From Magnetospirillum fulvum MGU-K5 (lineage in GTDB: Bacteria; Pseudomonadota; Alphaproteobacteria; Rhodospirillales; Magnetospirillaceae), in assembly GCF_000442515.1 (NCBI RefSeq), contig NZ_AQPH01000009.1, positions 1 through 64,000 on the forward strand: DNA of 64,000 nt. The letters are read 5' to 3'. The position numbers were made by a program, and so were the translations under genes. This document shows, piece after piece, positions 54,242-56,857 of this stretch (the first letter of the stretch is position 1; the number at the start of each line of letters is the position of its first letter). The notes below the pieces were generated by a model that ran no database searches, was not told the DNA's origin, and was given only the letters and a program-made list of their open reading frames with translations.

Positions 54242-56857
54242 ATGCCGTTATTGCGTAAGATCGAAGTTACCACCGGCGTCTGGTGGGTCGAGGTGCCCCA
54301 GGCGGGTCTGTGCGTGCTGTGCGGCTGTCCCGCCGATGTCGTCAAACATCTGATGAAGCGCGGCCTGATCGTCTCGACCGAGATGAACGGCGTTCCCTTC
54401 GAAACCGGCCCCAACGCGATCTTGCTGTCCGATGCGATGGTGCAGAACGGCAGCTTTTCCAATCTGGCCGAGTTCCCGGTGTTGCAGATGCTGTATCGCC
54501 AGGGAATGATTCTGCCCGACCATCCCGGCAATACCGGGGTCAAGCCGTTGCTGCTGGGCAGCGCCGATCAGGTTCAGGCGCAGATGCAGTACATCTATCG
54601 CGGCAATTACGGGCTGGTCAGCGAGGACGAAATCGTCGAGGCCGGGATCGACCCGGCCACCGCCCAAGCCATGATGCGGATGAAGCTGAAATTCGCGTTT
54701 GGCCAGATTCGTCATCCCGCCGATCTGCTCGATACCCGGATCGTCGATACCGAGCCGGTCGAGATCAGAAACGGCGTCACGGTGCGGCGGATGCTGTTCA
54801 ACGTCTTTCAGTTTTCCTATGAGGGCGAGACGGCGGTGGTCGATCTCAACCTGCCGCCGTTCGAGACCTACGAGCCGCCCTATCCGCTGGGCTATCACCA
54901 GTTGCGGCGTGAATATTTCGCCGTCATCCATTCCGGCGAGGGCGACGGCTGGGACATCAACCGCCCCAGCATGGCCTCGATCGTGATGTTCCAGGGCCGG
55001 ATCTTCCTGGTCGATGCCGGTCCCAACATCCTTTATTCGCTGAACGCGCTGGGGATCGGCGTCAATGAGATCGAGGGGATTTTCCACACCCATTCCCATG
55101 ATGACCATTTCGCCGGTCTGACCACGCTGATCCGCTCGGACCACAAGCTGAAATATTACGCGACGCCCTTGGTGCGGGCGGCGGTGGCGAAGAAGGTTGC
55201 CGCGCTGTTGTGCATCGAGGAAGAGGCGTTCGGCGATTATTTCGATGTTTGCCCGCTGGTCGAGGGCGCGTGGAATCTGATCGACGGGCTGGAGGTGATG
55301 CCGGTGTTCTCGCCCCATCCGGTCGAGACGACGATCATGCATTTCCGGGCGATGTGGGAAGGAGGCTACCGTACCTATTCCCATCTGGCCGATATCTGCC
55401 GCCTGTCGGTGCTGCGCGGCTTTGTTACAGACGATCCCGCCGCCCCCGGGATCGATCAGGCGATGTACGACCGGATCGCCGCCGAATATGCCAAGCCCGC
55501 CAACGTCAAAAAGATCGATGTCGGCGGTGGGATGATCCATGGCGACGCCTACGATTTCCGCGATGATCGCTCGGGCAAGATCATCCTGGCCCATACCTCG
55601 CACCGCAATACCCGCGCCCAGAAGGCGATCGGGTCAACCGCGTCGTTCGGCACCGTCGATGTGCTGATCCCGTCCAACCACGATTTCATCTGGCCGTTCG
55701 CTTACGAAGCGCTGGATTCCTATTTCCCCGGCATCCCCCGCCACCAGATTCGGGTGCTGCTGAACAACAGGGTGGTGACGTTCAATCCGGGGACGATCCT
55801 GATCAAGGAACGCACCGTCAACGACTATATCTATCTGGTGCTGTCGGGCAGCGTCGAGATGATCCCGATCGAACTGGAAACCCGTAGCGTGCTGTCGGCC
55901 GGGGCGTTGATCGGCGAATTGTCGGGGCTGTTCGGTGCGTTGGCGTCCGAGACCTACCGCGCCACCAGCTTTGTCCAGACCCTGGCGATTCCCTGCTCGC
56001 TTTATAGCGAGTTCGTCCGCCGCAACGATGTCTTCCCCGACCTGTCGCGGGTTCAGGAGCATCGCGAATTCCTGTTGCGCACCGCGCTGTTCGGCGAAGT
56101 GGTGTCATCGCGGTCGTTGAACGGGATCGCCCAGGCGATGACCAAAATCCTGGTCGCGGGGGAACAGGTGATCGATCCCGGCCCCGGCATGGTCGGGATG
56201 ATCAAGAGCGGCACCGCCGGGCGCTATCTCGGCGACCATATGTTCGAGACGCTTCGGGTCGGCGATTATTTCGGCGAGGAAGCGGCGGTGTTCGAAACGC
56301 CCAGCTTGTTGCGGGTCCGCGCGATCGACCCGTGCGAGGTCTTTCTGGTTCCGGCCGAAGCGTTGCGTGACATCCCGTCGGTGCGCTGGAAGCTGTTCGA
56401 AGCCACCACCAAGCGGCTGCGGGCGATGCTGGAGGCGGGCGAGCACGCCCGGGTGCTGATCCGCTGGAACGACGAATATTCAGTCGGGGTGCAGCGGATC
56501 GACAGCCATCATCGCCGCCTGTTCGAGATCAGCAATTCCGTGCTGGACCAGATGGATCGGGGCTGTTCTTCCGCCGATGTCGCGGATTCGCTGGGGCTGT
56601 TGCTGGATTACGCCCGCTTCCATTTCGGCGAGGAAGAGACGTTGATGGTCCGCTATAAATACGGCGATACGAGGCTCCACCGCGCCCAGCACGAACGCCT
56701 GCTTCAGCAATTGGGCGACATCCGCGCCATCGTCGCGGCGGGCGATGGCTACAAGACGGTCGAAATCTTGACCTTCCTCCAGGATTGGATCGTCTCGCAC
56801 ACCCTGTCCGAGGATCGCCGCGCCGCCAGCTTCCTCAATTCGAAGGGGGTCTATTAA
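54242..56857 (+). CDS. Metallo-beta-lactamase/double cNMP-binding/hemerythrin fusion
   Basis: An 871-residue multidomain protein. Residues 1-220 are an unassigned N-terminal region with three close cysteines (C24, C27, C29 in 'CVLCGCPADVVKHL'). A metallo-beta-lactamase domain follows (about 225-490) with H284, H286, D288 and H289 in 'FHTHSHDDHFAG', later H434 in 'IHGD', and H451/H454. Two cyclic-nucleotide-binding domains (about 505-600 and 620-725; 'GDYFGEEAAVFE' in the second), then a bacteriohemerythrin domain (738-865) with all seven diiron ligands: H757, H794, E798, H813, H817, H853 and D858. ATG 54242 has GGAGG upstream. Lies between the liv and leucine-degradation genes. An oxygen/NO- and cNMP-controlled hydrolase is inferred; the substrate is unknown. 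Confidence 0.85.
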   Translation: MPLLRKIEVTTGVWWVEVPQAGLCVLCGCPADVVKHLMKRGLIVSTEMNGVPFETGPNAILLSDAMVQNGSFSNLAEFPVLQMLYRQGMILPDHPGNTGVKPLLLGSADQVQAQMQYIYRGNYGLVSEDEIVEAGIDPATAQAMMRMKLKFAFGQIRHPADLLDTRIVDTEPVEIRNGVTVRRMLFNVFQFSYEGETAVVDLNLPPFETYEPPYPLGYHQLRREYFAVIHSGEGDGWDINRPSMASIVMFQGRIFLVDAGPNILYSLNALGIGVNEIEGIFHTHSHDDHFAGLTTLIRSDHKLKYYATPLVRAAVAKKVAALLCIEEEAFGDYFDVCPLVEGAWNLIDGLEVMPVFSPHPVETTIMHFRAMWEGGYRTYSHLADICRLSVLRGFVTDDPAAPGIDQAMYDRIAAEYAKPANVKKIDVGGGMIHGDAYDFRDDRSGKIILAHTSHRNTRAQKAIGSTASFGTVDVLIPSNHDFIWPFAYEALDSYFPGIPRHQIRVLLNNRVVTFNPGTILIKERTVNDYIYLVLSGSVEMIPIELETRSVLSAGALIGELSGLFGALASETYRATSFVQTLAIPCSLYSEFVRRNDVFPDLSRVQEHREFLLRTALFGEVVSSRSLNGIAQAMTKILVAGEQVIDPGPGMVGMIKSGTAGRYLGDHMFETLRVGDYFGEEAAVFETPSLLRVRAIDPCEVFLVPAEALRDIPSVRWKLFEATTKRLRAMLEAGEHARVLIRWNDEYSVGVQRIDSHHRRLFEISNSVLDQMDRGCSSADVADSLGLLLDYARFHFGEEETLMVRYKYGDTRLHRAQHERLLQQLGDIRAIVAAGDGYKTVEILTFLQDWIVSHTLSEDRRAASFLNSKGVY

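Follow-up and report, generated by a model that had tools for sequence, protein, structure and literature searches.

In a 64,000-nucleotide stretch of the Magnetospirillum fulvum MGU-K5 genome (contig NZ_AQPH01000009.1, positions 1 to 64,000; hereafter the window), we analysed a plus-strand gene encoding an 871-residue fusion protein, which we tentatively interpret as an oxygen- or redox-regulated atypical class II phosphodiesterase (PDE), with altered domains of the cyclic nucleotide monophosphate (cNMP)-binding fold as putative relays. We put the probability of this interpretation at about 0.45, since the metal ligands of the metallo-beta-lactamase (MBL) domain are kept in 123/123 family members, PF12706 and its associated motif are matched, Apyc1 ranks first among the structures, and the hemerythrin ligands are complete in 81/85 members with that domain. 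The domain order of GbpA/GbpB, the constrained core, the signalling neighbours and the loci with a cyclase and a TPR-CHAT gene also argue for it. What was observed directly is the domain content, the conservation of the metal sites, the loss of the arginines and the conservation across lineages.

The open reading frame (ORF) runs without interruption from an ATG start to a TAA stop codon. Fourteen relatives from named genomes match the protein over its full or nearly full length, with 54-93% identity (at a 15th named locus, the match is confined to the hemerythrin), and the dN/dS of the whole gene against four relatives is 0.11-0.19, indicating that the ORF is real and not due to chance. Pfam matches over the cut-offs were obtained for Lactamase_B (residues 251-306), Lactamase_B_2 (255-320) and Hemerythrin (749-860), and two stretches exceeded the cut-off for cNMP_binding, the best at 512-592. 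A first-pass annotation of this DNA had described a four-part fusion of an MBL, two cNMP-fold domains and a hemerythrin. Pfam and NCBIfam confirmed these four modules; a fifth part, residues 1-220, had been overlooked (Table 1).

Catalytic core and N-terminal domain

We aligned 123 family proteins, a non-random sample in which long open frames and distant branches were picked deliberately, and from which the truncated or interrupted L180, L175, L106 and L115 were left out (L and G numbers denote loci and genomes). The MBL ligand counts refer to all 123 rows, and the hemerythrin status and cassette counts to 122, because L133 ends at the edge of its locus. Each of H284, H286, D288, H289, H359, D384 and H451 is invariant in the 123 rows, the window protein included. 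The HxHxDH site, reported as intact in the first-pass annotation, is therefore present as H284-x-H286-x-D288-H289 in the window and throughout the family. D287 is likewise invariant (123/123), and T283 is kept in at least 90% of 59 diverse rows. H282, which belongs to the longer HTHSHDDH string, is not invariant, and thus the MBL metal set is the standard one. These ligands bear on the idea that the MBL domain is a non-enzymatic second metal sensor resembling flavodiiron proteins, which would make the whole protein a pure sensor or scaffold. The signalling surroundings would suit such a role, and flavodiiron proteins are near in fold (1vme: Z 12.4, root-mean-square deviation (rmsd) 3.8 over 144 residues), but the invariant ligands are those of hydrolases, HxHxDH, whereas flavodiiron proteins carry an HxExD set, and we consider a purely sensory MBL domain improbable.

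By profile and fold, the MBL domain is closest to the cyclic-nucleotide phosphodiesterases Apyc1 and YhfI. PF12706 (Lactamase_B_2) was matched over its cut-off (30.3 versus 27 bits); this family is used for the atypical class-II PDEs, defined by Rv1339, YhfI and CpdA with the signature [T/S]HXHXDH (PMC9293780). The string T283-H284-S-H286-D-D288-H289 fits this signature, with Asp287 where X is usually small or hydrophobic. The HXHLDH motif of typical class-II PDEs (PMC9293780) is not matched by HSHDDH, which has Asp at the Leu place. In a comparison of the family profile with solved structures, two Apyc1 chains were in the lead (E = 5.1e-8 and 4.3e-7) and an arylsulfatase came next (5.8e-7), and Apyc1 also ranked first when the MBL model was used in Foldseek (E = 1.1e-8). 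VIA-align, which re-aligns Foldseek's own matches, so that the two fold rankings are not independent, gave Z scores of 15.2-16.1 for Apyc1 (rmsd 3.0-3.4 over 156-179 residues), 13.6 for tRNase Z (3.2 over 139), 12.4 for YhfI (3.4 over 181) and 11.3 for yeast PDE1 (3.9 over 198). Cyclic mononucleotides are the substrates of both Apyc1 and YhfI (PMC9117128).

To judge from the alignment, residues 1-220 form a separate, highly conserved fifth domain outside known families. C27, P30, K35, G56-P57, Q68, N74, E77, H94 and R120 do not vary across the 59 diverse rows, and residues 21-120 are as conserved as the MBL domain, with a mean majority identity of 0.72-0.85 versus 0.54-0.84 in 20-residue blocks. 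No Pfam or NCBIfam family matched this domain in the window protein; among the 59 diverse members, family matches were scattered and weak (best E 0.01, in at most 6/59 members), and its profile matched nothing in the PDB even at E = 10. The domain with its CGCP motif occurs in the 123 aligned family members. The core as a whole (residues 1-500) has at least 53% identity to the window protein in the 59 diverse rows and is mostly under stronger constraint than the domains behind it.

Altered cNMP-fold domains and the hemerythrin

Both cNMP domains match PF00027 over the cut-off, and Foldseek with the low-confidence full-length model listed regulatory domains of the protein kinases PKA and PKG (best E 4.4e-8). 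The presence of two cNMP domains was established by Pfam for the window protein and both genome copies and by alignment for the other rows, and both cassette positions are filled in 123/123 aligned rows. The phosphate-binding arginine, sought ten places beyond the cassette glycine, aligns with A568 and S688 when solved cyclic-nucleotide-binding (CNB) domains of PKG and SthK are used as the reference. In domain 1, this arginine is absent from all members (0/85 with and 0/37 without the hemerythrin); in domain 2, it occurs in 1/85 and 8/37, respectively. Nine further PF00027 domains are encoded in this genome; by eye, six of them have Arg at exactly that place, and the remaining three resemble, in our impression, Crp/Fnr-type regulators.

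The first-pass annotation had proposed coupling to the cAMP or cGMP level. With the phosphate-binding arginine missing from both domains in nearly the whole family, as against six of nine genome controls, this proposal is unsupported, and sensing of cAMP or cGMP by the tandem appears unlikely. A changed pocket might nevertheless bind cAMP or cGMP and integrate the cyclic nucleotide level with O2. The PF00027 matches in both domains would be in line with this, as would the cassette glutamate, which is kept in 79/85 (domain 1) and 84/85 (domain 2) members of the hemerythrin form, the arginine in domain 2 of 8/37 hemerythrin-less members, and the binding of cyclic nucleotides by GbpA/GbpB (PMC11988041). 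On the other hand, the cassette arginine is nearly absent from the hemerythrin form, and an arginine within one place of the cassette position is found in 10/85 (domain 1) and 3/85 (domain 2) members. We therefore regard binding by an altered pocket as unlikely; judging from these residues, the tandem more probably binds something else or passes on a signal without any ligand. As to degenerate modules, the window protein has complete MBL and diiron ligands and altered cNMP ligand pockets.

The C-terminal domain matched the NCBIfam bacteriohemerythrin family NF033749 (105.4 bits, cut-off 84). All seven diiron ligands named in the first-pass annotation (H757, H794, E798, H813, H817, H853 and D858) are in the window protein, and the full set of five His, one Glu and one Asp occurs in 81/85 members with the domain. 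Since the hydrolase and diiron sites are both intact and conserved, hydrolysis could plausibly be coupled to the sensing of O2, NO or redox state, in line with the sensor-hydrolase link of the first-pass annotation.

The hemerythrin is present in 85 and absent from 37 of the 122 aligned rows with a known end. On the core tree, the presence label requires at least 12 changes. In a tree with nine other hemerythrins, the fused hemerythrins clustered together; a single fusion origin is not rejected, with low support (25/79, 28% of bootstrap trees), and row L003 of this tree is only 24% filled. At two loci, L206 (7564-8430) and L231 (7393-8484), a separate hemerythrin gene (Pfam-confirmed in L206) directly follows a hemerythrin-less member. 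We considered fission of a fused gene and rejected it, as the tree places these separate hemerythrins beside another unfused hemerythrin encoded in the window's genome and away from the fused domains. With 94% identity, L206 and L231 are closely related and represent a single event.

Instead of sensing oxygen, the hemerythrin might store or scavenge it and so protect the enzyme or its neighbours. Magnetospirilla are rich in hemerythrins, with 26 copies in M. gryphiswaldense (PMC9549626), which lends some appeal to this idea, but in the present family a single domain ends a regulatory tandem, its ligands are complete in nearly all members, and the poorly supported hemerythrin tree is compatible with one fusion. 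A storage role is, in our estimate, quite improbable.

Table 1 Features of the fusion gene in the window
Feature	Position	Strand	Basis
Whole gene, 871 aa plus stop	54242..56857	+	ORF reading, relatives
N-terminal domain, residues 1-220	54242..54901	+	Conservation; without credible family or PDB match
CGCP motif, residues 27-30	54320..54331	+	C27 and P30 123/123, C29 120/123
Metallo-beta-lactamase fold domain, about residues 221-495	54902..55726	+	Pfam, profile and fold matches
HxHxDH metal site, H284 H286 D288 H289	55091..55108	+	Sequence and family alignment
Metal ligand H359	55316..55318	+	Aligned with an Apyc1 histidine; family alignment
D384, probable bridging aspartate	55391..55393	+	123/123; role suggested by spacing after H359
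H451, probable last metal ligand	55592..55594	+	123/123; near 'ILTHLS' of other MBL proteins (hhalign), which suggests the role
cNMP-fold domain 1, about residues 496-610; phosphate-binding Arg position is A568	55727..56071	+	Pfam, alignment
cNMP-fold domain 2, about residues 611-731; phosphate-binding Arg position is S688	56072..56434	+	Pfam (over cut-off separately), alignment
Bacteriohemerythrin domain, residues 732-871; ligands H757 H794 E798 H813 H817 H853 D858	56435..56854	+	Pfam, NCBIfam, alignment

Distribution and genomic surroundings

A second copy in the same genome lacks the hemerythrin and is 55% identical to the window protein over residues 4-729. The N-terminal plus MBL core was found in 92/297 genomes of the order, with every best E below 1e-170. 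The class sample gave matches in 12/385 genomes, of which five are true members by score and seven are generic MBL proteins (E near 1e-7), and the phylum sample in 61/398, with 56 true members and five weak matches; the three samples share some genomes. The named carriers are Magnetospirillum, Phaeospirillum, Paramagnetospirillum and other Rhodospirillaceae, together with one Terasakiella record. No relative was found in the viral contigs searched. Two layouts recur, one of 863-881 aa with the hemerythrin and one of 727-786 aa without it. Longer open frames (1000-1175 aa) were considered as carriers of extra domains, and this was rejected, as protein lengths in the alignment stay within these two ranges; the excess length is upstream open frame under the start rule used. 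In L242 (G163), a stop codon interrupts a family member in its first cNMP domain, probably because the copy has decayed or the assembly is wrong there.

The family co-occurs with mamP. As the marker, we used the protein that we take to be MamP in the mamAB cluster of G009. In the order sample, the family is present in 28/30 MamP-positive versus 64/267 MamP-negative genomes, and in the phylum sample, in 44/46 versus 12/352. At the level of GTDB families within the order, 7/7 with MamP and 5/24 without it hold the gene (p = 0.0003); these 31 families were inferred from genome labels, and in one of the seven with MamP (f19) the gene and MamP are in different genomes. Many MamP-negative relatives, including the genome of the window, have the gene. 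We treat the association as a lead, since shared ancestry can produce it and the statistics ignore phylogeny. Among mamP-bearing genomes from other classes of the phylum, several (G690, G707, G730, G744 and others) have up to three strong copies each, with three candidates scored per genome, and may have more. A more far-reaching idea, to which we give little credence, is that these proteins are oxygen-gated nucleotide PDEs in which the hemerythrin replaces cNMP recognition, and that as near-constant companions of magnetotaxis they would set a messenger level along the oxygen gradient.

In the window, the gene lies between genes for leucine import and leucine oxidation, which the first-pass annotation took as a hint that respiration is linked to catabolism. 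Among the 14 named loci, compared without livG and ech, this context is confined to the closest relatives: liv genes are directly upstream only in L038 and L044, and leucine-oxidation genes are downstream only in L044. Elsewhere, L045 and L049 have a livF-like match about 5 kb upstream, and L039 and L043 have a distant one (33%) some 4 kb downstream. A link to leucine metabolism was therefore dropped. Genes of the 2-oxoacid:ferredoxin oxidoreductase type, identified by clustering with a Pfam check in L040, L041 and L049, are near the gene in 7/13 wider Magnetospirillum loci, which we did not take as functional evidence. Boxes of the FNR type with at most one mismatch occur seven times in the window versus 3.5 expected (10/100 shuffles reached at least seven), and none is directly before the gene.

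Upstream of the hemerythrin-less paralogue in the window's genome are a TPR-CHAT gene (Pfam, L204) and a first ORF that clusters with a CHASE2-cyclase (Pfam, L231). In L204 (1-7830, own genome), L206, L231 and L233, a cyclase-type gene, a TPR-CHAT gene and a family member stand in a row on one strand. By clustering, the cyclase/TPR-CHAT/family-member order occurs in four loci, including G165, whose copy in this setting is the hemerythrin form and another orthologue (52-53% identity). These genes may form a module of cyclase, caspase-like protein and phosphodiesterase.

Other family copies adjoin hybrid kinases and REC-HD, GGDEF-EAL and PAS proteins. We compared the neighbours with random control regions of the same genomes, using codon-based ORF choice (100/108 focal and 73/73 control proteins scanned; the neighbours of the near-duplicates L206 and L207 were left out, and L231 contributes none, its focal gene not being among the ORFs chosen). 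Response_reg was found in 16/100 focal neighbours versus 4/73 control genes (p = 0.05, uncorrected) and PAS in 11/100 versus 2/73 (p = 0.046, uncorrected). GGDEF was found in 6/100 focal neighbours among the families listed, a count for which the comparison with controls was not used. In an earlier scan, ORFs had been chosen by conservation (66 + 75 of 157 proteins).

Proposed mechanism and comparison with known systems

The protein would be a soluble signalling enzyme, in which residues about 221-495 form a two-metal phosphodiesterase together with the domain 1-220. This core would cleave a small, nucleotide-type second messenger, and the domains behind it would regulate the cleavage. The diiron site of the C-terminal hemerythrin is predicted to bind O2 (or NO or peroxide) and thereby switch its state. 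The cNMP-fold domains, in which the phosphate-binding arginine is lost, might serve as hinge, dimer interface and relay, perhaps with another ligand, and would pass the state of the hemerythrin to the catalytic domain. The whole would work like the GbpA/GbpB layout, except that an oxygen or redox input would take the place of the cyclic-nucleotide input or be added to it. The enzymatic activity, its substrate, the binding of O2 and the direction in which control runs are all predictions of this model.

Several observations weigh against it. The cut-off of the Apyc1 family PF23023 was missed (19.4 versus 50 bits; 22.1 bits in the whole-genome search, also below the cut-off). The sequence alignment to Apyc1 ends at residue 359, and D384 and H451 were placed only by spacing and a weak hhalign match. 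The AlphaFold models are poor, with pLDDT values of 52.8 for the full length and 59.3 for the MBL domain. In the latter, values are below 50 over a large part of the second half, from about residue 419 onward, so that residues 226-425 carry most of the fold match. The core can function without the hemerythrin, since 37/122 aligned members lack it. The enrichment of signalling genes around the family is slight, being weak and uncorrected for five tests, and neither HATPase_c (9 versus 5, p = 0.78) nor EAL (5 versus 2, p = 0.70) is enriched.

The structure rankings also leave room for a different substrate: the MBL domain might be a hydrolase or nuclease acting on RNA, a diphosphate, a lactone or a sulfate ester, under the same control. 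RNase Z, PhnP, PqqB and arylsulfatase are behind Apyc1 by modest margins, a further point against a phosphodiesterase, and the N-terminal domain could supply substrate specificity. However, Apyc1 leads both the profile and the fold rankings, and the cut-off of ribonuclease Z, TIGR02651, is far off (40.2 versus 292.95 bits). We claim membership in neither the Apyc1 nor the RNase Z family. Another substrate seems to us a serious, if rather unlikely, option.

If the phosphodiesterase interpretation is correct, Bhr-HD-GYP (PMC9388753) would be joined by a second type of hemerythrin-controlled phosphodiesterase that is unrelated to it. The family would then parallel, in bacteria, the GbpA/GbpB layout of Dictyostelium, and it would clearly exemplify cNMP domains retained while the ligand pocket changed. 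It would also be a concrete candidate for oxygen-to-nucleotide signalling in microaerophilic and magnetotactic bacteria.

Among known systems, Apyc1 and the atypical class-II PDEs of the YhfI and Rv1339/CpdA type share the best structure match, the motif and PF12706 with the window protein. The Apyc1 chains differ from it in having 245-257 residues and no further domains, and the window MBL is below the cut-off of their family. Bhr-HD-GYP, a c-di-GMP phosphodiesterase and the only known hemerythrin-domain phosphodiesterase according to a 2022 review (PMC9388753), likewise joins a hemerythrin to a phosphodiesterase. Its catalysis is of the HD-GYP and not the MBL type, and the excerpt of that review does not mention cNMP-fold domains for it.

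The regulatory subunits of kinetoplastid PKA also have tandem CNB domains without the cassette arginine, whose loss goes with a lost cAMP response (PMC10959531). There, a gained glutamate makes a nucleoside site. We considered a nucleoside-binding cassette of this kind and rejected it, as the second glutamate, two places after the cassette Gly-Glu, is absent from the window protein, which has S561 and A681 instead.

The closest parallel in layout is with GbpA/GbpB of Dictyostelium, in which an MBL phosphodiesterase is followed, in the same order, by two cNMP domains, through which it is activated (PMC11988041). The cNMP domains of GbpA/GbpB bind cyclic nucleotides and activate the phosphodiesterase, whereas those of the window protein lack the cassette arginine; moreover, the window protein has an additional N-terminal domain before the MBL and a hemerythrin behind the tandem. 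None of the papers listed by a full-text literature search was seen to describe the MBL-cNMP-cNMP-hemerythrin combination, although the 56 hemerythrin-containing architectures of a 2016 survey (PMC4919030) may include it. The claim that this combination has no described function must thus be narrowed: an MBL with two downstream cNMP domains is already known and characterised in GbpA/GbpB, and the addition of the hemerythrin is the new part.

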